A stretch of DNA of 64,000 bases, taken from NCBI GenBank assembly GCA_913060695.1, contig CAJXUA010000005.1:1-64000 (forward strand), in the 5' to 3' direction. The stretch's first letter is position 1. Each line of letters begins with the position of its first letter. The notes under the pieces were generated by a model. That model was not told the DNA's origin. It was given only the letters and a program-made list of their open reading frames with translations, and ran no database searches. Origin of the DNA: an uncultured Gammaproteobacteria bacterium. Lineage in GTDB: Bacteria; Pseudomonadota; Gammaproteobacteria; Pseudomonadales; Pseudohongiellaceae. This document shows, piece after piece, positions 30,457 to 50,866 of this stretch. The position numbers and the translations under genes are program-made.

Positions 30457-31962
30457 ATGGCTTCTACATATAGTCAGGCGTTTTTGAAGAATTTTTTGGG
30501 TGCTTCGCCCGATTGGTACAAACTGACCATCGTCGGTTTCTTAATATTAAACCCCATCCTATTTTTCCTGATAGACCCGTTCGTCGCAGGGTGGGTCTTG
30601 ATTCTCGAGTTCATCTTCACGCTTGCAATGGCGTTGAAGTGTTACCCGTTGCAACCAGGGGGTTTGTTAGCATTTGAGGCCATCGTGATGGGGATGGCAT
30701 CCCCAGAAACCGTCTACCATGAAGCCGTAGTTAACTTTCCTGTAATCCTACTATTGATCTTCATGGTTGCAGGTATCTCCTTCCTCAAAGAGATGCTGCT
30801 GTTCACGTTCACCAAGATTCTACTGCGCGTACGCTCCAAGATTGCGTTATCTTTGCTGTTTGCCTTAGTGGCAGCGGTGCTCTCGGCATTCTTGGATGCG
30901 CTAACAGTAACGGCGGTGGTTATCGCGGTGGCTACGGGCTTCTACGGGGTATATCACAAGGTTGCCTCTGGTCTGAAACACGATGCTGATAATCATGACG
31001 CGAGCCATGATGGTAATGTACAAGAGCATCGTCGCGAAGACTTGGAGCAGTTCCGTGCATTCCTACGTAACTTGATGATGCACGCCGCTATCGGTACAGC
31101 ATTAGGTGGCGTGGCGACTATTGTGGGTGAGCCACAGAACCTATTGATCGGCAGTATTATGGGCTGGGACTTCATAGAGTTCTATCTGCGTGTAATGCCG
31201 GTTTCATTGCCTGTTCTGTTTGTAGGCCTAGCCACGACGTTTATTGTTGAGAAATTCAAGATCGTTGGTTACGGCACTAAATTGCCCGAGCACGTGCGCT
31301 CTATCCTCGAGACTTACGACGCGGAGCAAACCGCTAAGCTGACCAAGCGCGATATCATGACTATGTGGGTTCAAGCCGCAGTGGCTGTGTTCCTAGTAGT
31401 TTGTCTGGCCCTGCATCTTGCAGAGGTTGGTATCATCGGCCTGGCGGTGATCGTCTTGGCGACTGCCTTTAATGGCATCACGGATGAACACCGTATTGGG
31501 CACGCATTCCAAGAGGCGTTACCCTTCACCTCGCTATTGGTGGTCTTCTTCGCCGTGGTGGGTGTTATTCACGAATTACACTTGTTCACGCCAGTGGTTA
31601 ACTTCGTTCTGGCGATGGAAGGGCATGCGCAGCTGTCAGCGTTCTATATTGCGAACGGTGTGCTGTCCATGGTCTCAGACAACGTGTTTGTGGCTACGGT
31701 CTATATCACCGAAGTACAGCAGGCTTTCGAAGCTGGCCGCATCTCACGAGAGCAGTTTGAGTTATTGGCGGTTGCGATCAACACAGGCACGAATATTCCT
31801 TCGGTCGCCACGCCAAATGGTCAAGCAGCCTTCCTGTTCCTGCTCACTTCCGGTGTTGCTCCGCTAATACGTCTATCCTATGGTCGCATGGTAATCCTTG
31901 CCTTGCCCTATACGATCACGATGTCTATGGCCGGCTTGTTGGCAACAATCTACCTACTCTAG
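30457..31962 (+). CDS. nhaB: Na+/H+ antiporter NhaB (copy 1)
   Basis: [82 protein letters not shown]. Confidence 0.97.
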
Positions 31963-32175: not shown

Positions 32176-33687
32176 ATGCTCATGACAGCTTCGTATGGCC
32201 AAACGTTTCTAAAGAATTTCTTGGGCTCATCGCCCGACTGGTACAAGCAGACAATCGTCGGCTTTCTTATCCTGAATCCTGTGCTGTTCTTCTTCGTCGA
32301 CCCTTTTATTGCAGGGTGGGCCTTAATAGCCGAGTTTATCTTTACCCTCGCGATGGCATTGAAGTGCTACCCACTGCAGCCCGGTGGCCTGCTTGCCTTC
32401 GAGGCAGTTGTAATAGGGATGTGTTCTACCGAGGCTGTCTACGAGGAAGCACACACTAACTTCCCCGTGATCCTGCTGTTGATCTTCATGGTGGCGGGCA
32501 TCTCCTTCTTGAAGGAGATGCTGCTGTTTACCTTTACTAAGATCTTGTTGCGCGTGCACTCCAAAACAATGCTGTCGTTGATGTTTGCCATTATGGGAGC
32601 CGTATTGTCGGCGTTCTTGGATGCCCTAACAGTAACCGCGGTGGTGATCGCGGTGGCCTCTGGCTTCTTCGGGGTCTATCACAAGGTAGCTTCGGGCTTT
32701 CATCACGACAAAGAGAACCACGATGTTACCGACGATCTCAGCATCAAGGACACTAGCCGAGCAGATTTGGAGAGTTTTCGTGCCTTCTTGCGCAATATCA
32801 TGATGCACGCCGCTATTGGTACCGCATTAGGTGGGGTTTGCACTATCGTCGGAGAGCCTCAGAACCTGCTGATCGGACACATCATGGAGTGGGATTTCGT
32901 GGAGTTCTTCCTGCGCGTAGCTCCAGTCTCGATGGTAGTTCTGGCTACGGGCCTTACCACTACGATTCTTGTGGAGAAGTTTAAGATTGCGGGTTATGGC
33001 GCAACCTTGCCGGACACTGTACGAGAAATTCTGCAGTCCTATGATGATGCACAGACTGCGAAACTGACGAGGTCAGACATCCTCAATATGTGGATACAGG
33101 CAGCGGTCGCTGTCTTCCTAGTATTCTGCTTAGCCTTCCACTTGGCCGAAGTAGGCATTATCGGACTAGCCGTGATCGTGCTGGCTACTGCCTTCACCGG
33201 CATCACTGACGAACACCGTCTGGGACACGCTTTCCAAGAAGCTCTGCCATTTACCGCCCTATTGGTGGTGTTCTTTACAGTCGTGGCGGTGATACATCAT
33301 CTGCATCTATTCACGCCGGTTGTGGACTATGTGCTGAGTCTGGAGGGTTCTACCCAGCTATCGGCGTTCTATATCGCCAACGGTGTGCTCTCTATGGTCT
33401 CCGACAATGTGTTCGTCGCCACTGTCTACATCACCGAGGTACAGTCGGCATTCTTGGCTGGCAGTATCGATCGTGCACAGTTCGATCTTCTGGCGGTGGC
33501 GATCAACACCGGTACAAATATTCCATCGGTTGCAACACCGAATGGGCAAGCTGCATTCCTGTTCTTGTTGACCTCGGCTCTTGCACCGCTGATTCGTCTC
33601 TCTTACGGTCGCATGGTGATCCTCGCTTTGCCCTACACGATCACGATGTCTATCGCGGGCCTGCTCGCAACGATGTACCTCCTGTAA
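32176..33687 (+). CDS. nhaB: Na+/H+ antiporter NhaB (copy 2, tandem paralog)
   Basis: Alignable with 30457-31962 over full length. Confidence 0.97.
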
Positions 33688-34304: not shown

Positions 34305-34961
34305 CTACATCGGTTTGCGCAGCGAAATAGCGCCGCGTACCTGGCCTGCTAGATACCCAATCGCGAGATCGTTTGGGTATCTAGCACGAATGGCGCTGAG
34401 CACTTCCTGACTTACCTCGCTGCCGTGGCATGTCAAACAAAGCGGTGCTGTGGGCTGGGCTTGCATATAGCGGAAATTGCCATTCACAGTTTCCGCAACA
34501 TTCAGTGTGGCCGCTGATTCCCCTGCTAGTTGACGCTGATCGAACATGTGTAGCACTTGTGTCTCCCATGAGTCCGGCACGGCAGTGCTGCTATTGCGGG
34601 CCTTTAAGCTGACTCGCGTCACATCCCAACCGGACTCTTCGCTCAATTGCTGAGCAATTCTTGGTGCTTCCAGCGCACAGACGTCGATCGCATTCAGTGG
34701 CCCGCCCTCTTGCATAGCGGATTGTAGTGTTGGCAATAGAGTGCCCACGAAGCGTTGTGTTAAATCACTGGCCTCATTGATGAGCGCTGTGGGGGCGAAT
34801 TGGGGAATGCCCGGCGTGCTAATTGCTGCGGAGTTCAATGTCGTTTGCGCCGAATTAGTTGCGACAGTTGCTCCCACTGTAGGAGGTGAGGCTGGCGTAC
34901 AACCGAGCAAAAATACTAATGGAAAGGCATAGCTTAGAGATAAATAGTTGCTTAGTTCCAT
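34305..34961 (-). CDS. DUF3365/Tll0287-like heme lipoprotein
   Basis: Lipobox LLGC; CLTCHG heme motif; YPNDLAIGYLAGQVRGAISLRKPM. Confidence 0.8.
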   Translation of the reverse strand: MELSNYLSLSYAFPLVFLLGCTPASPPTVGATVATNSAQTTLNSAAISTPGIPQFAPTALINEASDLTQRFVGTLLPTLQSAMQEGGPLNAIDVCALEAPRIAQQLSEESGWDVTRVSLKARNSSTAVPDSWETQVLHMFDQRQLAGESAATLNVAETVNGNFRYMQAQPTAPLCLTCHGSEVSQEVLSAIRARYPNDLAIGYLAGQVRGAISLRKPM

Positions 34962-35011: not shown

Positions 35012-35212
35012 ATGCTTTCGATTAGCCTGTCAGTAAAAAATGGACAGCGAGTTGTGCTAGACGAACAAGGGAGTCTTGTGGCTCAAGGTTTAAGTAATTT
35101 ATATCTGCACCAGAGTCGGGTTGCTCTTTGCTTGACGCCGGTCAATGCATTCGACGAGATGTTCAGGCAGTGTGAGTCTTTAGGTACGACGCTAGTGGAG
35201 AACGTGGCATGA
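35012..35212 (+). CDS. Small conserved-looking protein of unknown function, coupled to the phosphoketolase gene
   Basis: 66 aa; overlaps the next start by ATGA at 35209-35212. Confidence 0.6.
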   Translation: MLSISLSVKNGQRVVLDEQGSLVAQGLSNLYLHQSRVALCLTPVNAFDEMFRQCESLGTTLVENVA

Positions 35213-37503
35213 GTGACAATAAGGCAGTTTGGCTCGCCGGTTATGGCGTCATCGAACATAGGCCCGATACTGTGAAAGCAGTAGAGGAGCTAGTGGATTC
35301 ATTGAATGTCGCTGGCATTTGTAAGCGGGAGCAAGCCTGGGCGCTCTTTCTTGCTGCCGATAGGCTGTCGAGCATGGGGCTGTGGCTAACCGCACACATG
35401 ACCTATGCACGAGAGGTGCATCTCGATGGGCGCACACTAGCCGCCGAGGATTTCAAGCTTACGCCGGAGGGGCATACAGGAGGGGCGCTTAATATGGTGC
35501 CCGCTTATGTAGGCTACCTGCTTGCCAATGCACTGAGTGGCAGCACACGCGCTTGGATGATGGGGCAAGGGCACTGCGTGGCGGCGATCGATGCCGTGAA
35601 TATCTTGATGCGCAATCTCGAGCCTGAACAAGAGGCCCGATACCCGCGCTCCGATCAGGGGCTGAGCCAGCTTTGCCAGGATTTCTACAGTTATGAGATC
35701 GGCGCCAATGGGCGGCCCGTCGCGCCCTTGGGGAGTCATGTGAATGTGTATACCGCCGGTGGTATCAGCGAGGGCGGCTATCTCGGTTTCGCTGGCCTAC
35801 AGTATGTCCACATGCCATTGCCTGGGCAGGAGTTGGTGAGTTTTCTCAGTGATGGGGCTTTCGAGGAACAGCGCGGCAGCGATTGGGCATCGCGCTGGTG
35901 GCGTGGCGAAGACACCGGGTTGGTGATGCCCATCATGATTGCCAATGGCCGTCGTATCGATCAACGCACGACCATGTCTCAGTCTGGCGGGGTGCATTGG
36001 TTTCGCGATCATCTAAGACTAAACGGCTTCGAGCCTGTGGATATCGATGGGCGTGATCCTGCGGCATTCGCCTGGGCAATCCTAAGCATGGCGCAGCGAC
36101 TCAAGACCCAGCATGAGCAGATTGAAGCAGGGGAGCGTAGTTATCCAGTATTGCTTCCATATGCGATTGCGGAAACGGTAAAGGGCTTTGGCTTCCCGGG
36201 TTCGGGTACCAACGCTGCGCATAATCTGCCGTTGCCAGGCAGCTGCGCCAGCGATGAGAAAAGCCGCACTTTATTCAACGAAGGCTGTGCAAAATTATTC
36301 GTTGCCCCTGCTGAGCTGGCCGTGGCAATCGAGTCTTTGCAAACGCATAGTGCACAGGGGCGAGTGCAGGAGAAGGATCACTGCCTGCGTCAATTGAAGG
36401 TGCAATCTCCTGTTCTCCCATTTCCAGAGAGAATAATTCCCGGCACAGCGGTTGCCCCTATGGCTGCGATCGATGTGTGGTTCTGCGCTTTGGCCACTGC
36501 TAATCCCAATATGCGGGTTCGAGTTGGCAACCCGGACGAGATGCGCAGCAATCGCATGAACAAGAGCTTGGACCTTCTTCAGCATCGAGTTACCTCTCCC
36601 GAGGACGGAGTCTCCGAATCCTTACACGGCGCCGTGATCACAGCACTCAACGAAGAGGCCGTGGTGAGCGCGGCGCTTGCGAACAAACAAGGGCTGAATC
36701 TTGTTGTCAGTTATGAGGCTTTCGCTGTCAAGATGCTGGGCGCGATGCGACAAGAGGTAATCTTTGCCCGGCATATCTTGGAAACGGGTCGGCGTGTACG
36801 CTGGCTGTCGGTGCCAGTGCTGGTCAGCTCCCACACTTGGGAGAACGGTAAAAACGAACAGTCACATCAGGACCCAACACTTTGTGAGGCGTGGTTAGGT
36901 GAAATGGCAGACGTGGCACCTGTGTACTTCCCCTTCGACGCCAATAGCGCCGTTGCGTTAATGGGGACGCTCTATAAACAAACTGGCCGAGTAGCAACCG
37001 TGGTAACGCCGAAAAATGTGACCCCCTATTTTTGCAGTGCCGCGCAGGCTCAGCAGGCGGTGCAGGACGGCGCTATGGTATTGCAGCACGATAGCGATGC
37101 GATTCTGCAATTCTTGGCAGTAGGAGCCTATCAACTGGAGGCGGCAAATAAGGCGGCACAGGTGATGCGTGAGCAAGGCGTGGATTGCTCGGTTGTGGCC
37201 ATCCTAGAGCCTGGCAGATTTCGCATTCCCAGAGACGCGCGGGAGGCAAACTACGTGCATTCCGATGCGGACATTGCGCGCATTATTCCCCCGGTCGAGA
37301 CGCGCCTGATTGTCTGTCATACCCATGCAGAGGTCATGACCGGTGTGCTGCGCCGTCTCGACACAGGAATCGCACAAACCCGCGTGCTCGGCTACCGTAA
37401 TCGTGGCGGAACGCTCAGCGTCGCGGGCATGCAGGAAGCCAATGGTCAATCCTGGCAAGCGATTGTCGGCGCGGCGAATTCGATATTGGGTCTACCCAAC
37501 TAG
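35209..37503 (+). CDS. Divergent phosphoketolase family protein (sometimes annotated xylulose 5-phosphate 3-epimerase)
   Basis: EGHTGGALNMVPAYVGYLLAN, GQGHCVAAIDAVNI, SDGAFEEQRGSDWASRWWRGEDTGLVMPIMIANGRRIDQRT, C-terminal YRNRGGTLSVAGMQEANGQSW. Confidence 0.85.
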   Translation: MSDNKAVWLAGYGVIEHRPDTVKAVEELVDSLNVAGICKREQAWALFLAADRLSSMGLWLTAHMTYAREVHLDGRTLAAEDFKLTPEGHTGGALNMVPAYVGYLLANALSGSTRAWMMGQGHCVAAIDAVNILMRNLEPEQEARYPRSDQGLSQLCQDFYSYEIGANGRPVAPLGSHVNVYTAGGISEGGYLGFAGLQYVHMPLPGQELVSFLSDGAFEEQRGSDWASRWWRGEDTGLVMPIMIANGRRIDQRTTMSQSGGVHWFRDHLRLNGFEPVDIDGRDPAAFAWAILSMAQRLKTQHEQIEAGERSYPVLLPYAIAETVKGFGFPGSGTNAAHNLPLPGSCASDEKSRTLFNEGCAKLFVAPAELAVAIESLQTHSAQGRVQEKDHCLRQLKVQSPVLPFPERIIPGTAVAPMAAIDVWFCALATANPNMRVRVGNPDEMRSNRMNKSLDLLQHRVTSPEDGVSESLHGAVITALNEEAVVSAALANKQGLNLVVSYEAFAVKMLGAMRQEVIFARHILETGRRVRWLSVPVLVSSHTWENGKNEQSHQDPTLCEAWLGEMADVAPVYFPFDANSAVALMGTLYKQTGRVATVVTPKNVTPYFCSAAQAQQAVQDGAMVLQHDSDAILQFLAVGAYQLEAANKAAQVMREQGVDCSVVAILEPGRFRIPRDAREANYVHSDADIARIIPPVETRLIVCHTHAEVMTGVLRRLDTGIAQTRVLGYRNRGGTLSVAGMQEANGQSWQAIVGAANSILGLPN

Positions 37504-37512
37504 GAGAGTACT

Positions 37513-39054
37513 GTGAATTCGAAGCAGGGCACGGCCGATTCCCCGGATGAAAACTTTCTGTATCTCACTAAAGCGGGCATCGACACTCATCAAGAGCCCG
37601 TGGTGTATATGCGCAGTGATTGCCATGTAGTCCGTTCAGAGGGCTTCAGTGCTCAGGGCCGGGTACGGGTGTGTATTGACGGGCGCAGCGTCATCGCGAC
37701 TCTGAATATCGTAACGGGTGAGCTACTCAGCCACCAGAAGGCAGGATTAAGCGATAGTGCGTGGAAGCTGCTTAAGGCAAAAGAGGGCGACAAGGCTACT
37801 TTCAAGCATGCGCTGCCAGTCGAGTCGATGAGTTTTGTGCGCGGCAAACTCTATGGCAAAGCGCTGGGGCTGGAGGCCGCGCGAGCTATTATCGGCGATA
37901 TAAGCGAAGCGCGGTATTCCGATATACAACTAGCTGCGTATGTGACCGCCTGCGCGGGCAATAATCTGAATCTCGACGAAACGATCGCCATCACCAAGGC
38001 GATGGTAGAGTGTGGGGAGCACTTCGATTGGGGAGAGGGGGTGCAAGTCTTAGATAAACATTGTGTAGGGGGACTACCTGGCAATCGCACTACTCCAATC
38101 GTTGTGGCCATTGTCGCGGCGAACGGTTTGATGATGCCCAAAACATCTTCCCGTGCCATCACCTCGCCGGCGGGTACCGCCGATACCATGGAGACCCTCA
38201 CAACGGTTGCGTTGAGTTTCGAGAGAATGCGAGAAGTGGTGCAAGAACAAGGGGCGTGTCTGGCCTGGGGCGGCTCCGTTTCCCTAAGCCCTACCGATGA
38301 CATCATTATTCGTGTGGAGCGCGCGCTAGACCTAGACAGTGAGGGTCAGCTCGTTGCATCGGTCATCTCTAAGAAGCTAGCGGCTGGCTCTACCCATGTT
38401 CTCATCGATATCCCCGTTGGGCCTACTGCAAAAGTCCGCAGCGTAGAGTTGGCTCAAATGCTGGCCGATCTCTTGGTAGAGACTGGGGCGGCACTGGGCA
38501 TGAAGGTGCAGATTCTCATCAGCGATGGTAGCCAGCCCGTTGGTCATGGCGTCGGTCCGGCCCTGGAGGCGCGGGATGTCTTGGCTGTGCTGCAACGCAC
38601 GAAGAGCGCGCCAGAGGATCTGCGCGAGCGGGCACTTACCCTTGCGGCGACTATGCTGGAGATGGGCAATGCCTGTCCCCCAGGGCGCGGTTTAGCCTTG
38701 GCTACGCAGACACTAGACAATGGCGATGCCTGGAAGAAATTCGTGGCCATTTGTGAAGCGCAGGGGGGATTGAAAACGCCCCCTGTTGCTCCGTTCCAGC
38801 ATTCCATTACGGCACACAAGGCGGGCATCGTGGCCTTGTTCAATAATCGCGTGATCTCTCGCTTAGCTAGTCTCGCGGGCGCACCCAATGCCGTCTCCGC
38901 GGGTATAGATCTACATGTCCGCCTTGGCGATAAAGTGGAGAAGGGGCAGTTGTTAATGACCTTGCATGCGGAGGCGAGAGGGGAGATGGAGTATGCGCTC
39001 GATTTCTATCAGTCTCATCTCGACGTGTTGCATATCGAGGAAGAGTTCGTATGA
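37513..39054 (+). CDS. Thymidine phosphorylase family, archaeal AMP phosphorylase (long DeoA) type
   Basis: 513 aa with N-terminal extension; VLDKHCVGGLPGNRTTPIVVAIVAANGLMMPKTSSRAITSPAGTADTMETLT. Confidence 0.9.
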   Translation: MNSKQGTADSPDENFLYLTKAGIDTHQEPVVYMRSDCHVVRSEGFSAQGRVRVCIDGRSVIATLNIVTGELLSHQKAGLSDSAWKLLKAKEGDKATFKHALPVESMSFVRGKLYGKALGLEAARAIIGDISEARYSDIQLAAYVTACAGNNLNLDETIAITKAMVECGEHFDWGEGVQVLDKHCVGGLPGNRTTPIVVAIVAANGLMMPKTSSRAITSPAGTADTMETLTTVALSFERMREVVQEQGACLAWGGSVSLSPTDDIIIRVERALDLDSEGQLVASVISKKLAAGSTHVLIDIPVGPTAKVRSVELAQMLADLLVETGAALGMKVQILISDGSQPVGHGVGPALEARDVLAVLQRTKSAPEDLRERALTLAATMLEMGNACPPGRGLALATQTLDNGDAWKKFVAICEAQGGLKTPPVAPFQHSITAHKAGIVALFNNRVISRLASLAGAPNAVSAGIDLHVRLGDKVEKGQLLMTLHAEARGEMEYALDFYQSHLDVLHIEEEFV

Positions 39055-39935
39055 AACCGATAATATTTATTATGCCAGGCCAAGAAGCGCTGGGAGAGTC
39101 GCTTCTCGCCGGTGGTGGTTTTGAGAAAGGCGTTCTGGAATTGCGACAATTTCCAGATGGGGAAAGTTATATTCGCGTGCTCAGCGATGTAGCCGATACG
39201 CAGATTATAATCCTCTGCCAGTTACATCAGCCTAACGAGAAGATTCTGCCGCTTCTACTGTTGGTGGGTACGCTGCGAGACTTGGGCGTACACAGCATCG
39301 GTTTAGTTGCTCCCTATCTTGCGTATATGCGTCAAGATAAACGCTTTCATGAGGGCGAGGGCGTCAGCGCGCAGTATTTCGCCCGTTTGCTTAGCCAGCA
39401 ATTCGACTGGTTGTTAACAGTCGACCCGCATCTGCATCGTATACACGCACTCAACGAGGTTTATAGCATACCGTCCATCGCCTTGAGTGCAGTGCAGCCC
39501 ATTGCGCAATGGTTAAGTGGGCAGGTTAGTAAACCCATCATTATCGGGCCAGATGGAGAGTCGGAACAATGGGCCTCCAAGGTGGCGCTGGCTGCTGGCT
39601 GCCCCTTCGAGGTGCTGAGTAAGGAGCGCTTCGGTGATCGCGAGGTGCGTGTCTCCGTACCCCATGTTGCGGACTTTCTCGATCACACGCCAGTACTTGT
39701 AGATGACATAATTAGTACTGGCCATACCATGATGCAGGCCGCTGCACACTTGCGTGAAAGTGGCATGCGAGCGCCGGTGTGTATCGGTGTGCATGGGATT
39801 TTTGCAGCGGGTTCGCTCGCTCAAATGCGAGCAGCGGGGTTGCAGGTTGTGACGACTAATAGCATCGCCGACCCTAGCAATCAAATCGATCTGGCGCCTC
39901 TTATACTCGAGGGTCTGCAGCAGTTCTTGCAGTAG
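39051..39935 (+). CDS. Ribose-phosphate pyrophosphokinase-like protein
   Basis: FPDGESYIRV, PYLAYMRQDKRF, PRPP loop VLVDDIISTGHTM; ATGA overlap with upstream gene. Confidence 0.88.
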   Translation: MKPIIFIMPGQEALGESLLAGGGFEKGVLELRQFPDGESYIRVLSDVADTQIIILCQLHQPNEKILPLLLLVGTLRDLGVHSIGLVAPYLAYMRQDKRFHEGEGVSAQYFARLLSQQFDWLLTVDPHLHRIHALNEVYSIPSIALSAVQPIAQWLSGQVSKPIIIGPDGESEQWASKVALAAGCPFEVLSKERFGDREVRVSVPHVADFLDHTPVLVDDIISTGHTMMQAAAHLRESGMRAPVCIGVHGIFAAGSLAQMRAAGLQVVTTNSIADPSNQIDLAPLILEGLQQFLQ

Positions 39936-42642
39936 CGCTTTTGCGCCTCGCTAAGGCCTTGTCTATTTCAACTAATATTAACACCACCATTGCACTGCCT
40001 GTCACTAGAGCCCAATCGAAAAGGGAGATTGCGCTTACCTCGAATATGCGTTGCGATATGGGAAGATAGGTGAAGGCGAGTTGCCCGAGCAACACCAAAG
40101 CTATGGATATTAGGACGGGCCCGCTGCCGCGACGCATGTCCGAGTGCAAAATACTCTGCTCGAAGAAGCGTGAGCTGAGAAGGTACAAAGCCTCGATCAT
40201 CACAATGCTGTTAACGGCCATTGCGCGTGCGCGCTCAATGGAGCCATGGTGATCGAGTACCCAAAGGAAGAGAGCGAACACCACAACAGCGCCGCTGATA
40301 CCCACGAGCAACAGGCGGCGCAGCAGCAAGGGGGTGATGAGTCCTTGTCCGAATGGGCGGGGTGGGTGTTGCATGGTTTCGCGCTCACTCAGCTCGAAGG
40401 CGAGCGCAAGTGAAAGTGTCACCGTGGTCACCATGTTGATCCACAGTATCTGGGGCGCGGTGATCGGAAGCTCCCAAGCGAAGAGGATCGCCAATAGTAC
40501 AATACTGGCCTCGGCCAGATTGGTCGGCAGCATGAATAGGATCGACTTGATGGTGTTGTCATACACCGTGCGACCAACCTCGACCGCTTGCGTGATGGTG
40601 GCGAAATTATCATCGGTGAGCACGATGTCGGAAGCTTCTCGTGCGGCATCGGTGCCCTTCATGCCCATTGCTACGCCGATATCCGCCTTGCGCAGTGCGG
40701 GCGCATCGTTGACGCCGTCCCCTGTCATTGCCACCACATGCTTGCGCCCCTGCAATGCTGCTACCAATTGCAGTTTATTGGCAGGGCTAGTACGGGCATA
40801 GATATCGACCTGTTCCGCAGCCTCTGCCAATTGCTCTGGGCTCATCTCGTCTAGTTGCTGTCCGGTTAACACCCTTGTCGTATTCAGCCCCAACTCTTTG
40901 CCGATCGCCGCCGCAGTTAATGGATTGTCGCCGGTAATCATTTTCACGCGTATGCCAGCGTCGTGGCATCGTGCGATCGCTGCCACGGCCTCCTTGCGGG
41001 GCGGGTCACTGATGCCGAGAAGCGCTATCATTTCCATATCTTGCGCAACGTCTTCGTGGCTTAGGCTTATTTGATCCGTGGAGATCATCTTCTTTGCGAC
41101 AGCAATAACGCGCATGCCTCTTGCCGCCAATGCGGCAATCTTGTTTTGCCACATCAGCGCATCGATGGGCTGTGCCCCGTTCGGGCCAGATTGAGTTTGG
41201 CACATCGGCAGAAGACTCTCTGGCGCGCCTTTTAAGGCGATCATGGTGCCTTTGCCGGCAGCGCTATGCGCGGTTGCCATGTATCGCCTCTCGGTCTCGA
41301 ACGGGAGAACATCAACGCGAGGATAGCTGGACTTTGTCGAGGCTTGATCGAGCCCTAATTTTAAGGCGAATACTTGCAGCGCTCCCTCTGTAGGATCGCC
41401 ATTGACCTGCCACTGACTCTTATTGTCGCAGCTGATACTCGCGTCGTTGCAGAGCATGCTGACTAACGCAGCGCTCTCTAGGACGGCCTCCCATTCGGGG
41501 CTGTGGGTACTGAAGTTACCCTTGGGTTCGTAGCCCTCACCACTGGCATTGATGTCTACACCGGCGGTGGCGATCTCCCTCACAGTCATGGCATTGGCCG
41601 TTAGAGTGCCGGTCTTATCCGTACAGATAATATCGACAGAGCCGAGAACCTCTACTGCGGGTAGGCGGCGCACTAGTGCATTGCTGCGGGCCATGCGCAT
41701 GACCCCGAAGGCGAGCACGATGGTGACGATGGCGGGCAGCTCCTCGGGGATTGCGGCCACTGCGATGGCGATAGCGCTCTGCAACATCTCGGCGAAGCTA
41801 TAGCCATGGGCAAGCATCCCGAAGGCGACAATAAGCGCCGTCAGCCCAAGGACGGTGAGTGTTAGATTGCGGGCTAGAGCGCTTAGTTGTCGCTGTAAGG
41901 GTGTTGGCTGAATCGACACACTATTCACCAGCGTGTTGATTGCGCCGATCTGAGTTTCAGTGCCGGTATGGGTGACTACTCCGGTCGCTGCGCCCGCGAC
42001 AATCATGGTTCCCATAAAGACCATGTTGTGACGCTCTGCGAGTGGACAGTCCTGCGCAACTACATCGCAGAGTTTCTCGCTGGCGAGAGATTCACCGGTT
42101 AGGGCAGATTCGTCGCTGCGCAGATCCTTGCTGTTGAGGAGGCGCACGTCGGCGGGGACTCGGTCGCCCGCCTGCAACGATACGACATCGCCAGGGACGA
42201 GAGCGGTACTAGCAACACTGAGTAATTCACCATCGCGCATTGCGAGGCAGTGAGTAGTACTGATGGACAGAATGGCATTTAGAGCAGCCTCTGCCTTGCC
42301 TTCCTGAATAAACCCGATGAGACCGTTGATGAGGACGACGGCAAGAATGACACCGGCGTCTACATAGTGCCCAAGGAAATAACTGATGAGCGCACCGCCA
42401 AGCAGTACGTAGATGAAGAGGCTGCGAAATTGCCGCAGCAGGCGTTGCCATGGGGGAGTGCTAGCAGCTACGGGCAGTAGATTGGGCCCGTAACGCTGCA
42501 CGCGAGCCTCTGCTTCGCTACCGCTTAGTCCTTCCCGCGTGCTGCTCAGCTGCGCTAAGAGTTCTTGTTCGGAAAGGGCATAGGGAGCACTTACTCGCGC
42601 AGCAGATTCGATTTGCCCTGTGTTCTCCAACTGTGTCGTCAT
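39901..42642 (-). CDS. Cation-transporting P-type ATPase (SERCA/PMR1-like)
   Basis: ICTDKTGTLTANAMT, KGAPESLLP, TGDGVNDAPALRKADIGVAMG. Confidence 0.94.
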   Translation of the reverse strand: MTTQLENTGQIESAARVSAPYALSEQELLAQLSSTREGLSGSEAEARVQRYGPNLLPVAASTPPWQRLLRQFRSLFIYVLLGGALISYFLGHYVDAGVILAVVLINGLIGFIQEGKAEAALNAILSISTTHCLAMRDGELLSVASTALVPGDVVSLQAGDRVPADVRLLNSKDLRSDESALTGESLASEKLCDVVAQDCPLAERHNMVFMGTMIVAGAATGVVTHTGTETQIGAINTLVNSVSIQPTPLQRQLSALARNLTLTVLGLTALIVAFGMLAHGYSFAEMLQSAIAIAVAAIPEELPAIVTIVLAFGVMRMARSNALVRRLPAVEVLGSVDIICTDKTGTLTANAMTVREIATAGVDINASGEGYEPKGNFSTHSPEWEAVLESAALVSMLCNDASISCDNKSQWQVNGDPTEGALQVFALKLGLDQASTKSSYPRVDVLPFETERRYMATAHSAAGKGTMIALKGAPESLLPMCQTQSGPNGAQPIDALMWQNKIAALAARGMRVIAVAKKMISTDQISLSHEDVAQDMEMIALLGISDPPRKEAVAAIARCHDAGIRVKMITGDNPLTAAAIGKELGLNTTRVLTGQQLDEMSPEQLAEAAEQVDIYARTSPANKLQLVAALQGRKHVVAMTGDGVNDAPALRKADIGVAMGMKGTDAAREASDIVLTDDNFATITQAVEVGRTVYDNTIKSILFMLPTNLAEASIVLLAILFAWELPITAPQILWINMVTTVTLSLALAFELSERETMQHPPRPFGQGLITPLLLRRLLLVGISGAVVVFALFLWVLDHHGSIERARAMAVNSIVMIEALYLLSSRFFEQSILHSDMRRGSGPVLISIALVLLGQLAFTYLPISQRIFEVSAISLFDWALVTGSAMVVLILVEIDKALARRKSATARTAADPRV

Positions 42643-42650
42643 GGGTTTGC

Positions 42651-44075
42651 TCAGAAGTTAATGCTCTCACCCAAGCTAGGCACGGTGCAGCGAATCTCAT
42701 GATCTTCCCAAAATTTCAATGATAGAGCCTCGAGCGCCGTCGCCTCGCCGTGCACGAGAATCAAGCGGGGTTTGTCTTTGAACTGCGTAGCCCAATCGAT
42801 GAGTTCACTCTGGCCTGCATGGGCAGAGAAGCCCCCGAGGGTTTCAATGCGCGCACGCACGATAAATTCGTCTCCAAACATGCGGTAGCTCTTCTCACCA
42901 TCGACGAGGCGACGGCCTAGGGTGCCGAAGGCTTGGAAACCAATGATCAGTACCGTATTTCTCTCGCTCCAGATGCGATGTTTGAAGTGATGGCGAATGC
43001 GCCCGCCTGTGCACATACCACTGCCGGCAATGATGATCGCCCCTTTCTTGATTTTGTTGATCGCCATGGACTCTTCTGAGCTATTGGTCAGGTTAAGTGT
43101 CGGTAGGAATTTCTCGAGAGACTCTTTGCCAAACTTGTCCAAGCAACGCACGTCTTCGCTGTCTAAGATTTTGAGCCAGTGATCGTAGACAGAAGTCACC
43201 TCGATCGCCATGGGGCTGTCGAGGAAGACTTGCCAATTATCCAGTTTGCCGGCGTGGTAGAGACACCCTAGGTGATAGATGATTTCCTGGGCCCTGCCAA
43301 CCGCGAAAGAGGGGATCATGACATTGCCGCCGCGCTCCCAAGTCTCGTGCAATATCTGCTCAAGCTCCTCCAAGGTGTTGTCCATGCTGCGGTGGTTGCG
43401 ATTGCCATAAGTCCCTTCCATCAAGAGGATATCGGCATGTTCTACAACAGTAGGGTCGTTCATCAGTACCGAGTCGGATTTACCTAAATCGCCGGAGAAA
43501 ACTATACGGCGAGTCTGCCCTTTCTCCGTTAACTCTAGTTCGACAATCGCAGAGCCCAGGATATGACCTGCATCTTGGAAATATAGCGTAGCGTCGGGTG
43601 TAATTTTAACTGGCGTGCGGTAAGGGCTGCCCTCGCAGAGCTTAAGTACTTGCTCAACATCTTTCTCGGAATACTCCTCTTCCAATAGGGGGCGGCCACT
43701 GCGCTTGCGCCGCAGGTTTTCGTGCTCTAGATCGCGGTGGTAAAGGCCAGAGGCGTCCTCGAGCAGAATTCGCAGGAGGCCTTTAGTAGCCTGGGTGCAA
43801 TAGATCGGGCCACTGAAGCCAAGGTTGACTAGGGTGGGCAGCAAACCTGAATGGTCTAAGTGGACATGGGAGAGAATGACGGCATCGATGCTATTGGCCT
43901 CGAAAGGGAAGCCCTCGTCTTGAATACGGTTAAGTGCATCTCCGCATTGGCGCATGCCGCAATCTAGAAGTACTCGGCCAATGGCAGGAGACTCTACTAA
44001 GTGGCAAGAGCCGGTGACTTCCTGTGCGGCGCCGTGAAATGTAATCGTGCCCATACTTTCTCTCCCATTGTGCAA
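42651..44075 (-). CDS. MBL-fold beta-CASP RNA-processing-exonuclease-like protein
   Basis: LSHVHLDHSGLLPTLV, VFSGDLGKSD, LMEGTYGNRNHR, SGMCTGGRIRHH, FSAHAGQSELIDW. Confidence 0.92.
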   Translation of the reverse strand: MHNGRESMGTITFHGAAQEVTGSCHLVESPAIGRVLLDCGMRQCGDALNRIQDEGFPFEANSIDAVILSHVHLDHSGLLPTLVNLGFSGPIYCTQATKGLLRILLEDASGLYHRDLEHENLRRKRSGRPLLEEEYSEKDVEQVLKLCEGSPYRTPVKITPDATLYFQDAGHILGSAIVELELTEKGQTRRIVFSGDLGKSDSVLMNDPTVVEHADILLMEGTYGNRNHRSMDNTLEELEQILHETWERGGNVMIPSFAVGRAQEIIYHLGCLYHAGKLDNWQVFLDSPMAIEVTSVYDHWLKILDSEDVRCLDKFGKESLEKFLPTLNLTNSSEESMAINKIKKGAIIIAGSGMCTGGRIRHHFKHRIWSERNTVLIIGFQAFGTLGRRLVDGEKSYRMFGDEFIVRARIETLGGFSAHAGQSELIDWATQFKDKPRLILVHGEATALEALSLKFWEDHEIRCTVPSLGESINF

Positions 44076-47977: not shown

Positions 47978-50866
47978 ATGAAGTTTAGCAGTCCATTTCC
48001 ACAGAAGAAGTTGCTTTGTGCAGCCATTTCCATTTCCTTGCTGCAAATCAGCGGCGCTGCACTTGCCCAAGCCCCTGAAGTTGAAGAAGTAGTTGTTACT
48101 GGCTCCTTTATTCGTCGTACAGAAGGTTTCCGTGCTGCATCTCCAATCACTCAGATCACTGCAGATGATCTTGCAGCTGAGGGTACACCTAACATGGGCG
48201 ACGTGGTCGCTAACCTGAGCTTCAACCAAGGTTCATCGGTTACTCAGAACTCTTTGACTGGCGCATCTAGCACAGCTACTGGCGTCAACCTGCGTGGCCT
48301 TGGCGAGGGTGCTACTCTGACTCTAGTCGATGGCATGCGTACTATCAGCAATAACGTCAACACTTTCCTGCCACAGATCGCGATTCAGCGTCTTGACATC
48401 GTGACAGACGGTGCCGCAGCCCTATACGGCTCGCAAGCGGTAGCTGGTGTTGTAAACTTCGTGCCGCGTACTTCTTACGATGGCGTGAAGGTAGAGCTTT
48501 ATCAGCAGGGCGATAGCCGTGGTGATTACAAAGACACTACTATCAGCTTCTTGGCTGGTACTGAGTGGAACGGCATCAACATCGTTGCTGCGGCAGATTG
48601 GCGTACTAACGGTCGCCTGAAGATGATCGATCGTCCTGACCAGATGAATGCTGGTTTGACTTCGTCTTCTACTCCAAATCCAGGTCGTTACCTCGTGCCA
48701 AGACGCGATGCAGCAGGCAACTTGACGGGCACAACTGCGCTTAAGTCAGATCCTAACTGTGGCGGTACGCGCGAAGATCCAACGCAAGTTGGCAACAACC
48801 CAAATGGCTTCACTTTCGGTGGCCAGTGCTGGTATGACTTCGGTGAATTCTGGGACTACCGTGTAAAGCAAGACACTGGTACAGCATTCCTTAACCTGTC
48901 TTATGACGTAAGCCCAGACTTGAGCATCAGTGCTCAGACTAGCTACTTCTCACGTCGTAACTACAACCGTGGCTCGCCTTCTAACCCAGGTGGTCGCGTA
49001 AGTGAATTGCCAGGTATTCGCGGTGAATTGCCAGGCAACCCATTCCGCGCAGTAACTTCAACTGGCGCTCCATTGTTCGCAGCAGATGCAAACGGTGACG
49101 GCGTGCCTGATCGCAACAGCAATGGTCAAGTGATCCTTGATCCTGCCGGTATCGCGTTCAACGAAGACGTGACTTTTGGCGCATGGCGTCCATGGGGTAA
49201 GCACGGTACATTGCCTTCACAGTTGGGTGCTGACGGCGCTACTGTAGGTGATGCGTATATCCGCGGTGTGCGTCAAGCATTCAAGGCAGACTTCGCAGTC
49301 CCTTACCTGAACGACTGGCGCGGTAATGCGACCTACACCTTCTCTTATCAGCAGGATAAGAGCTTGGCGAACAACTTCAGCATGGCTGCACTGACACAAG
49401 GCTTGAACTGTGACGTGGTCAATGACCGTGAAGCATGTTTCAACCCCTTCGTTTCTGCTGACGGTTCTAACCTGAACACTCAGGCAGTTGCTGATTCTAC
49501 TTATGTGCAGAATCGCACTAACAATGAAGACAAATTGCAGACATTCGACCTAGTGTTGAACGGTGTAATCTCTCCAGGCGGCTTCGAATTACCAGGCGGC
49601 ACTATCGGTGCAGCATTTGGTTACCAGCGTCGTGAAGATCGTTTCAGCAACGTGCCTTCATTGCACAGCTTGACTGGTGACGTGTTCATCGGTGCACAAC
49701 TGTTCCCGAACAGCGATGGTCGTTCTGTAGATGCATACTTCGCAGAGCTTTCATTGCCACTTCTAGACAACCTAGAGCTGAGCTTGGCACTTCGTGACGA
49801 GGCTTACTCTACTGGTCAGAGCTCTACCGATCCTAAGTACGGCATCGTGTACACGCCAATCGACCGTCTGACTCTGCGTGCAAGCGCGGGCTCTTCATTC
49901 GTTGCGCCTTCATTGTCGCAGTTGAACGATCCAGAGTCCTGTGGCCTGACTAACGTTGCTGACCCGTTCACTACATTCGCAGCTTTCACGGCGAACTGTT
50001 CGAGCGGTAACCCGCTTCTAGTTCCTGAGTCTGCTGATACATTGAGCGTTGGCTTCGAGCTAGACTTGATCGAAGGCATGGTAGTGTCCGTTGACTATAG
50101 TGAGACTGACTTCACCGATCGAATCATCGCTTCTACAACTAACGATGTATTGAGCGCTGACTTCTTCAACTTCAAGCAAGCGACTGGTTTTGCCGGTCCT
50201 GGCATGCCTACGTTGGCACAAGTTGCTGCATGGAATGCTGATCCACGTTCGGACAAGCGCATCGTGCGTGACCCGAACAACATGGCGCAGATCGATCGCA
50301 TCTACTCAGGCGACTCAAATGCGTCAAGCATGCTTGTGAAAGCCTATGACTTGAATTGGTCTTACCGCTTCTCTGTTGGCGACATCGGCATGTTCAATGT
50401 TGGTTTGAACGCGACTTATGTCGACTCTTACCAGTACCAGCTATCGGTTGACCGTCCTGTAGTAGAAGGCAAGGGCCTGCAGAACGACAACACTGGTGCG
50501 GTACCCCCAATGCCAGAGTGGAAAGGCAATCTGAACATGGGTTGGTTGATGGGCCAGCACAGTGCAAACGTCACTGTACGCTACATTGACGACATGGTAT
50601 TCGATGCAAACCCATTCTCCTTCCAGCGTCTGTTGCCTTTCAGCAACTACCGCGCTACTTCTGAGTTGCACGCTTCTACAATCGTAGATGCGTCATACAA
50701 CTTCAGCCAGTTGGAAGCTTTGGGTGGCGAGTTCGCGTTCACTGTTGGTGCACGTAACTTGTTCGACCGCTTGCCACAGAAAGTGCCAATGCTAGGTGGT
50801 ATGGAATCAACTCTATATGACCCAACAGGCCGCATGGTCTACGCACGTGTTACTTACGAAATGTAA
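47978..50866 (+). CDS. TonB-dependent receptor (tandem copy 1)
   Basis: 962 aa; VEEVVVTGSFIRRTEGF, IVTDGAAALYGSQAVAGVVNFVPR. Confidence 0.96.
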   Translation: MKFSSPFPQKKLLCAAISISLLQISGAALAQAPEVEEVVVTGSFIRRTEGFRAASPITQITADDLAAEGTPNMGDVVANLSFNQGSSVTQNSLTGASSTATGVNLRGLGEGATLTLVDGMRTISNNVNTFLPQIAIQRLDIVTDGAAALYGSQAVAGVVNFVPRTSYDGVKVELYQQGDSRGDYKDTTISFLAGTEWNGINIVAAADWRTNGRLKMIDRPDQMNAGLTSSSTPNPGRYLVPRRDAAGNLTGTTALKSDPNCGGTREDPTQVGNNPNGFTFGGQCWYDFGEFWDYRVKQDTGTAFLNLSYDVSPDLSISAQTSYFSRRNYNRGSPSNPGGRVSELPGIRGELPGNPFRAVTSTGAPLFAADANGDGVPDRNSNGQVILDPAGIAFNEDVTFGAWRPWGKHGTLPSQLGADGATVGDAYIRGVRQAFKADFAVPYLNDWRGNATYTFSYQQDKSLANNFSMAALTQGLNCDVVNDREACFNPFVSADGSNLNTQAVADSTYVQNRTNNEDKLQTFDLVLNGVISPGGFELPGGTIGAAFGYQRREDRFSNVPSLHSLTGDVFIGAQLFPNSDGRSVDAYFAELSLPLLDNLELSLALRDEAYSTGQSSTDPKYGIVYTPIDRLTLRASAGSSFVAPSLSQLNDPESCGLTNVADPFTTFAAFTANCSSGNPLLVPESADTLSVGFELDLIEGMVVSVDYSETDFTDRIIASTTNDVLSADFFNFKQATGFAGPGMPTLAQVAAWNADPRSDKRIVRDPNNMAQIDRIYSGDSNASSMLVKAYDLNWSYRFSVGDIGMFNVGLNATYVDSYQYQLSVDRPVVEGKGLQNDNTGAVPPMPEWKGNLNMGWLMGQHSANVTVRYIDDMVFDANPFSFQRLLPFSNYRATSELHASTIVDASYNFSQLEALGGEFAFTVGARNLFDRLPQKVPMLGGMESTLYDPTGRMVYARVTYEM

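Follow-up and report, generated by a model that had tools for sequence, protein, structure and literature searches.

The locus analysed here raises the question of what common function would unite a divergent phosphoketolase (PKL), a long-form member of the DeoA family (TP2) and a protein resembling PRPP synthase (Prs-like) in one operon. The window, i.e. the whole stretch of 64,000 nucleotides (64 kb) that was analysed, derives from an uncultured gammaproteobacterium, and the first-pass annotation had proposed that its operon channels nucleotide-derived ribose phosphates to acetyl phosphate. All four open reading frames were confirmed on the forward strand (Table 1), as were the predicted ATGA overlaps at 35209-35212 and 39051-39054; TP2 starts with GTG 9 nt past the PKL stop codon and is preceded by AGGAG. 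The PKL-TP2-Prs operon is a genuine, tightly ordered and widespread bacterial gene group. The genes further upstream, encoding Usp, NhaB and Tll0287, were rejected as members of the module, being conserved in the nearest 3-6 relatives only.

Table 1. Features of the operon and its surroundings, in positions of the window
Feature	Position	Strand	Basis and remarks
ORF66, decayed 3' end of ackA, now promoter region	35012..35212	+	BLASTP and C-terminal alignment; homologous stretch ~35051-35182
FNR/Anr-type box TTGACGCCGGTCAA	35132..35145	+	Perfect match; ends ~63-64 nt 5' of the PKL start codon, within the ackA remnant
Candidate -10 element CAGTGT	35168..35173	+	22 nt past the box; weak TATAAT match, predicted from sequence
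PKL, divergent phosphoketolase subfamily, 764 aa	35209..37503	+	Pfam XFP/XFP_N, 100/100 clade, catalytic residues, structural match
TP2 (513 aa), bacterial long-form DeoA-family protein related to archaeal AMP/NMP phosphorylase	37513..39054	+	NF003338, 4ga5 match
Prs-like (294 aa), member of the PRK07199 subfamily of PRPP synthases, altered pyrophosphate loop (GPDxESEQW)	39051..39935	+	NF005537, 376.5 bits
P-type cation ATPase, convergent neighbour	39901..42642	-	Pfam
Beta-CASP metallo-beta-lactamase RNase, opposite strand to the operon	42651..44075	-	Pfam Beta-Casp and RMMBL

PKL scores above the Pfam cut-offs for XFP and XFP_N (139 and 45.7 bits, respectively) and below every NCBIfam phosphoketolase cut-off (best 134.5 bits versus 777). 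By homology it is a member of the phosphoketolase superfamily that stands outside the named subfamilies, and its clade is monophyletic with a support of 100/100. In bifidobacterial numbering, the catalytic positions H64, H97, H142, G155, S440, E479, Y501, N549, H553 and K605 are kept in 98-100% of 71 PKLs, and the K300/H320 motif in 66 of the 71. The XFP enzymes of Bifidobacterium, cyanobacteria and lactic acid bacteria resemble PKL in fold, domain order, ThDP-binding and catalytic residues and in their pairing with acetate kinase. In contrast to these, PKL forms a separate clade, carries SDGAFEEQ in place of the canonical GDGEAETG, as already pointed out in the first-pass annotation, and NGKN in place of QDHN, and is linked to TP2, Prs, the RNase and an FNR box.

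TP2 passes the models NF003338 (652.8 bits) and TIGR02645 and has the long form, with an N-terminal domain and the motif KTSSRAITSxAGTAD. Its predicted structure matches the AMP phosphorylase of T. kodakarensis (TK0352, 4ga5) over the full length including the N-terminal domain (TM 0.91/0.95), and as modelled TP2 is structurally an NMP phosphorylase. The archaeal enzyme has the same signature motifs at ~43% identity, whereas TP2 belongs to the bacterial subfamily NF003338 and has DKHC for DVHS. The earlier label of AMP phosphorylase has to be qualified: the long form and the signature motifs quoted for it were all found, but for TIGR03327 (AMP_phos) the score is 472.4 bits against a cut-off of 535. 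The third protein keeps the conserved ATP, flexible-loop and ribose-phosphate motifs of PRPP synthase, with FPDGE, RQDxRF, PHLH, the KxR flexible loop and DD(I/V)xSxGxT in common with PRK07199. It differs from PRPP synthase in its altered pyrophosphate loop and in neighbouring TP2; a second, canonical Prs is encoded elsewhere in the host genome.

Both of the first two assignments have competitors. PKL could be a thiamine-dependent enzyme with another substrate rather than a functional phosphoketolase, as might be argued from its ~20% identity to solved phosphoketolases, from its active-site loop, where Q546 is Asn in all 71 PKLs, H548K is likewise fixed, D547G and F551Q are mostly present and EAETG has become AFEEQ, and from the RefSeq name 'xylulose 5-phosphate 3-epimerase' carried by 14 of its 15 closest plasmid relatives. 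However, the catalytic and ThDP/Mg-binding residues are retained, acetate kinase is coupled to PKL in relatives, and the best structural match is a phosphoketolase (TM 0.77) and not transketolase (~0.60), while the epimerase name finds no basis in any result of the analysis; we consider a different substrate quite improbable. TP2, in turn, would be a nucleoside phosphorylase if its label in RefSeq, thymidine phosphorylase family protein, were taken literally, yielding ribose-1-phosphate or deoxyribose-1-phosphate for a phosphopentomutase instead of ribose-1,5-bisphosphate (R15P). The shortfall against the AMP_phos equivalog cut-off and five residues, including the Lys of DKH, that match DeoA against the T. 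kodakarensis enzyme would fit this reading, yet 20 diagnostic residues are common to TP2 and AMP phosphorylase against DeoA, and the structure and the N-terminal domain, missing from DeoA, likewise point to the AMP-phosphorylase form, which makes a nucleoside phosphorylase unlikely. We know of no assay of any enzyme from the PKL clade or the bacterial TP2 clade.

The 66-codon reading frame at the head of the operon had been taken for a translationally coupled gene, a view that did not hold: what remains there is the end of an acetate kinase gene otherwise lost by deletion. Residues 14-57 of ORF66 align with the final residues of acetate kinase, and its best four non-self BLASTP matches are each to the C-terminus of an AckA (E 2e-5 to 2e-4) encoded at a locus in which an intact ackA lies directly 5' of PKL (L037, L039, L040 and L043). 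In relatives with an intact gene, ackA overlaps PKL. Degraded copies of the ackA tail are also found in L032, L041, L048 and L050, and that of L032, a 93% identical relative, has no start codon and a stop upstream. The AckA matches and this startless copy rule out a conserved small protein. The host's own acetate kinase is an AckA-PduL fusion, whose gene lies at another place in the genome.

Within this remnant lies the single perfect FNR/Anr box of the 64-kb window; the genome holds 32, compared to 15 for the reversed pattern. Among 69 PKL homologues, the window included, 12 have a perfect box 5' of the gene, against a background of 0.01 per 390 bp. The spacing between box and candidate -10 element is that of class II FNR promoters, and CANT(A/G)T occurs at the same spacing in the ten loci that have the box or a one-mismatch form. 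Transcription is likely to start inside ORF66, with the 5' end predicted near 35180. The genome also encodes an FNR with Cys-x2-Cys-x5-Cys and a fourth Cys, and the perfect box near a promoter is accompanied by the four-Cys regulator expected of an FNR/Anr regulon. The box might have been a by-product of the codons for LTPVN in AckA. This reading is weakened, within the limits set by the shared ancestry of the relatives, because 9 of 10 relatives have TTG plus GTC there although the joint frequency of these codons is 0.03-0.13 in the PKL genes of the same loci, and because the box persists in five copies whose ackA tail is no longer part of an intact gene. It would appear, with the same proviso of shared ancestry, that relatives have kept the box beyond coding need. 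A general occurrence of the box at TP2-Prs operons is not supported, a perfect copy being present at their own promoter in 2 of 30, and no box was found in seven of nine stretches from plasmid modules. The operon is probably switched on at low oxygen.

The first-pass hypothesis had been made to depend on co-occurrence of the three genes in other genomes, and the trio does recur. A total of 81 genomes have both TP2 and Prs-like, where 19 would be expected (p=2e-69, a statistic that ignores phylogeny), and the two genes are direct neighbours in 77 of 82 cases; TP2 is located ≤10 kb from PKL in 43 of 80 PKL loci and is over-represented among genomes that have a phosphoketolase of whatever kind. 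The trio recurs with acetate kinase and the beta-CASP RNase in at least four gene orders; such groups are spread over Gamma-, Beta- and Alphaproteobacteria and plasmids, and one chlamydia has the group with an ordinary phosphoketolase. Acetate kinase, the enzyme expected after acetyl phosphate, recurs in PKL neighbourhoods. The beta-CASP RNase belongs to the module, 55 of the 80 PKL loci having a homologue nearby; it lies beside TP2 in just 2 of 30 non-phosphoketolase loci (1.5-kb flanks). A homologue of the P-type ATPase is frequent but not constant (40/80 PKL loci), and GAPDH, adenylate kinase or gnd occur in the vicinity of the module or, on plasmids, of PKL.

A literature search, conducted mostly outside subscription papers, returned nothing on the trio as a described system except Bradyrhizobium tables. 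In these studies, bll3117-3116-3115 (TP2-Prs-MBL) and bll2518-2517 (a phosphoketolase of PKL or ordinary type, with AckA) are FixK2-dependent, and the genes for phosphoketolase, TP2, Prs and MBL are listed with raised expression in microoxia (PMC9104804, PMC6515984). The FixK2 operons of B. diazoefficiens share with the present locus their gene content and a low-oxygen control by the FNR family, but comprise two operons rather than one and retain an intact ackA. In P. aeruginosa, PA3613, listed as a phosphoketolase, is among the anaerobically regulated genes (PMC8575079). The 'stress or starvation' role suggested earlier is better specified as oxygen limitation.

In combination, these observations are consistent with a module for regaining energy and carbon from nucleotides when oxygen is limiting, a proposal to which we give an even chance. 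An FNR/Anr-type regulator would activate PKL-TP2-Prs via the promoter within the ackA remnant, and the linked beta-CASP nuclease would plausibly free 5'-NMPs from RNA. TP2 would convert 5'-NMP and phosphate to base and R15P, and the ribose phosphate would enter the pentose-5-phosphate pool and reach xylulose-5-phosphate by RpiA and Rpe. PKL would then form acetyl phosphate and glyceraldehyde-3-phosphate from xylulose-5-phosphate and phosphate, and acetate kinase, beside PKL in relatives and present here as the AckA-PduL fusion, would yield ATP and acetate. Prs-like may turn R15P or R5P into PRPP for base salvage, or remove the 1-phosphate; that it links R15P to pentose-5-phosphate is our conjecture. 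We infer all enzymatic steps, the direction in which TP2 works and what Prs does. The gene content, the co-occurrence, the conserved residues and the FNR box are observed, and FNR, RpiA, Rpe and AckA are all encoded by the host. The reported absence of RuBisCO was borne out for the whole 3.73 Mb genome, as was that of R15P isomerase: the sole IF-2B-family protein is MtnA, far under the TIGR00511 cut-off (141 of 314 bits). The host genome thus lacks two enzymes of the archaeal pentose bisphosphate pathway, from which the present system also differs in pairing TP2 with Prs-like and a phosphoketolase, and since an R15P isomerase gene is lacking the proposed pathway has a gap after R15P.

Alternatively, one oxygen-responsive promoter may serve two functions, with PKL and acetate kinase fermenting central pentose and hexose phosphates and TP2-Prs acting as a nucleotide salvage pair, possibly towards NMP/PRPP synthesis, that passes no carbon to phosphoketolase. 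TP2-Prs is indeed usually found without PKL, and PKL adjoins gnd in Phenylobacterium and stands alone or with AckA only in other loci; in Bradyrhizobium the two halves lie in separate operons (PMC9104804). The preferred reading also has to contend with the much wider occurrence of TP2-Prs (86 of 387 gammaproteobacterial genomes) compared with PKL, with the many genomes that have TP2 but lack a phosphoketolase, with Halomonas and Halopseudomonas, where PKL has no TP2 partner, and with the scarcity of the RNase beside TP2 outside phosphoketolase loci and of FNR boxes at TP2-Prs promoters. Against the two-function reading stand the enrichment of TP2 among phosphoketolase genomes and the repeated joining of the halves in differing orders, in one apparent transcript here and in plasmid clusters, and we hold the division into two functions to be possible, if somewhat doubtful. 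A bolder version of the preferred energy-recovery reading, namely a bacterial pentose-bisphosphate route that does without RuBisCO and ferments RNA at low oxygen, would have the beta-CASP RNase release 5'-NMPs, the NMP phosphorylase form R15P, Prs-like move the 1-phosphate onto AMP (or otherwise convert R15P to R5P), and the dedicated phosphoketolase subfamily with acetate kinase generate ATP, all as a portable plasmid cassette; we find it improbable. The nucleotide-to-energy idea is partly supported, by the co-occurrence, the ackA neighbourhood and the form of TP2, and has lost its small reading frame.

NMP phosphorylase is known from archaea, where it supplies RuBisCO. If the energy-recovery reading is true, a conserved bacterial NMP phosphorylase tied to phosphoketolase, acetate kinase, RNase and oxygen control would give the ribose of nucleotides a second destination, and the module would be an energy source for hypoxic cells. 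The analysis also flags a large phosphoketolase clade with a remodelled active-site loop, for which the RefSeq epimerase name is probably wrong, and the Bradyrhizobium and plasmid systems offer places where the idea can be tested directly.

All four ORFs of the operon, its two ATGA overlaps and the motifs quoted in the first-pass annotation were found in the sequence. Pfam domains of the XFP/XFP_N, DeoA and PRPP-synthase types were assigned to the divergent phosphoketolase-family protein (PKL), the long-form DeoA homologue (TP2) and the Prs-like protein, respectively, and the 66-codon ORF66 had no match in domain/family profile searches. PKL is the sole phosphoketolase-family member found in the 3.73 Mb genome, which also encodes RpiA, Rpe and, on a different contig, a second and canonical Prs. 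A search of the 3.73 Mb returned no RuBisCO; the single IF-2B-family protein, considered as a ribose-1,5-bisphosphate (R15P) isomerase, is MtnA and scores far under the R15P-isomerase cut-off. A single acetate kinase is retained away from the operon, fused to a PduL-type phosphotransacylase as an acetate–acetyl phosphate–acetyl-CoA converter in one protein; its gene adjoins groEL. The window further encodes two NhaB Na+/H+ antiporters in tandem (80% identity), two TonB-dependent receptors (87% identical) and, between a Usp gene and the operon, a Tll0287-like protein bearing a CxxCH haem motif, present at the operon in the nearest relatives only.

Coordinates of the features discussed (window positions unless a locus or contig is named)
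Feature	Position	Strand	Length (aa)
NhaB antiporter	30457-31962		
NhaB antiporter	32176-33687		
Tll0287-like protein	34305-34961	-	
ORF66	35012-35212	+	
FNR/Anr box	35132-35145		
PKL	35209-37503	+	764
TP2	37513-39054	+	513
Prs-like protein	39051-39935	+	294
Beta-CASP RNase	42651-44075	-	
TonB-dependent receptor	47978-50866		962
TonB-dependent receptor	51658-54546		962
AckA-PduL-type phosphate propanoyltransferase fusion	L142:829-2667	-	612
Same fusion, own genome contig	C4:219082-220245		

The proposal that the small ORF is a coupled gene of the operon was not borne out. Compared with 1,424 neighbourhood proteins, ORF66 matched, itself aside, four acetate kinases only (E<0.01), always at the final residues of AckA, and in the C-terminal alignment its tail ..VALCLTPVNAFDEMFRQ.. 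pairs with ..AQIWLTPVNEVTEMICQ.. of AckA. In the four matched loci as well as in L033 and L042, ackA is intact and runs up to the PKL start or nearly so. The same ackA tail, without a start codon and with a stop, is found in L032 (PKL 93% identical), and other truncated tails with differing upstream neighbours occur in L041, L048 and L050. Since the matches lie only at AckA ends, intact ackA precedes PKL in relatives and the tails are degraded, ORF66 is the remnant of a deleted ackA, a pseudogene tail, and its ATGA overlap with PKL is the former AckA–PKL junction.

Within the ackA tail lies a perfect FNR/Anr box, TTGACGCCGGTCAA, the sole perfect match in the window; the genome holds 32, versus 15 with the reversed pattern. 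Among the 69 PKL homologues with sufficient upstream DNA, 12 carry a perfect box upstream of PKL (background 0.01 per 390 bp) and 18 a box with at most one mismatch (background 0.06 per 390 bp). Among close relatives of the window, the palindrome coincides with AckA codons for L-T/I-P-V-N, and AckA coding need could be the source of part of its conservation. Yet the codons TTG and GTC are used jointly at the palindrome in 9/10 loci, compared with a joint frequency of 0.03-0.13 across the PKL genes there, and the palindrome is retained in all five truncated ackA copies. A CANT(A/G)T element, weakly matching the -10 consensus, lies 22 bases past the box in 10/10 loci, which is the spacing of class II FNR promoters. 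The genome encodes an FNR protein that exceeds its NCBI cut-off and has the cysteines expected of such a regulator.

In Bradyrhizobium diazoefficiens, two predicted operons have FixK2 boxes: one encodes a thymidine phosphorylase family protein, Prs and MBL (bll3117-bll3116-bll3115), the other a phosphoketolase and an acetate kinase (bll2518-bll2517). Fold changes upon fixK2 deletion were -6.6 (bll3117), -30.6 (bll3115), -10.0 (bll2518) and -10.2 (bll2517) (PMC9104804). A table of proteins and genes raised in microoxia includes bll2518, bll3115, bll3116 and bll3117 (PMC6515984), and P. aeruginosa PA3613 is among anaerobiosis-regulated genes (PMC8575079). Both bll2518 and PA3613 are listed as phosphoketolases, a name that would fit either the PKL or the ordinary type.

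In the tree, PKL forms a clade separate from ordinary phosphoketolases (support 100/100) on a very long internal branch; no description of it was found in the literature. Equivalents of His64, His97, His142, Gly155, Ser440, Glu479, Tyr501, Asn549, His553 and Lys605, which we take from bifidobacterial structures to be the active-site residues, are kept in 70-71/71 PKLs. Fixed or nearly fixed are the changes QDHNGF to NGKNEQ in loop 546-551 and GDGEAETG to SDGAFEEQ, the latter retaining Asp-Gly. The AlphaFold model (pLDDT 84; substrate loops low) best matched phosphoketolases (TM 0.77/0.75 to 8io8), followed by transketolases (about 0.60). RefSeq names 14/15 of the closest plasmid homologues 'xylulose 5-phosphate 3-epimerase', for which no basis was found in literature or protein-family models. 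The TP2 model aligned over its full length with T. kodakarensis AMP phosphorylase (TM 0.91/0.95, rmsd 1.9), and with nucleoside phosphorylases over the core alone (TM 0.7); 20 diagnostic columns side with AMP phosphorylase against DeoA, and 5 the reverse. The Prs-like protein retains PRPP-synthase motifs, with GPDxESEQW as pyrophosphate loop. The T. kodakarensis NMP phosphorylase converts NMPs to R15P (PMC9700705, PMC8376864).

Across 80 PKL loci (flanks of at most 10 kb, some shortened by contig ends), neighbours included the beta-CASP RNase (55), TP2 (43), the Prs-like gene (42), a P-type ATPase (40) and acetate kinase of one cluster (32). The order varies: ackA-PKL-TP2-Prs in the window's group, TP2-Prs-RNase-x-ackA-PKL in Haliea, Kangiella and others, PKL-RNase-TP2-Prs in Acidovorax, and RNase-TP2-Prs-PKL in Stenotrophomonas and Lysobacter relatives. 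For the window's beta-CASP protein, the type VII CRISPR Cas14 (MBL/CASP) model outscored aCPSF1, far under the Cas14 cut-off. Among 387 gammaproteobacterial genomes, with kinship between genomes disregarded, TP2 occurred in 86 and the Prs-like gene in 87, both together in 81 (19 expected), and TP2 was enriched with any phosphoketolase (41 vs 24, p=9e-6) and with the PKL type (9/12, p=1e-4); 77/82 placed TP2–Prs pairs were adjacent.

Plasmid records of Rhizobium rosettiformans, Agrobacterium, Sulfitobacter and Acidovorax carry the module as well, in R. rosettiformans with adenylate kinase, Usp, P-type ATPase, Prs, PKL, MBL and TP2, and in Acidovorax with AckA and GAPDH; in a plasmid record of the chlamydia Criblamydia, MBL, TP2, Prs and AckA accompany a phosphoketolase that bears the ordinary family's name. 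The R. rosettiformans and Agrobacterium plasmids were typed as conjugative, that of Acidovorax as mobilizable. Four plasmid copies (L155, L160, L154, L162) adjoin copper/heavy-metal resistance genes (multicopper oxidase, P-type ATPases, CusA). L076, L077 and L078, recorded under different orders as Haliea, Alcanivorax and Cycloclasticus, have TP2-Prs-RNase-AckA-PKL DNA that is 96-98% identical, and the TP2-Prs-RNase portion shares 96% identity with a Methylophaga pinxianii plasmid (H1), pointing to recent transfer or, in part, misassigned MAG contigs.

The simplest reading of these gene sets is a low-oxygen route through all module members, in which RNase and TP2 would release R15P and base from RNA or NMPs, RpiA and Rpe would convert ribose phosphate to Xu5P, PKL would cleave this to acetyl phosphate and GAP, and AckA would yield acetate and ATP. 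GAPDH beside one module copy and adenylate kinase beside another both fit. The weak link is R15P to R5P: the Prs-like protein is the positional candidate, yet the PRPP-synthase reaction itself does not consume R15P. A serious alternative is that the PKL and TP2–Prs parts are co-regulated and serve separate functions, since TP2–Prs mostly occurs without PKL, and PKL at times without TP2. The nucleotide-to-phosphoketolase pathway of the first-pass annotation is partly supported: its small ORF drops out and its enzymatic steps are predictions; what stands is a genuine, conserved and oxygen-linked metabolic module that includes the PKL clade.
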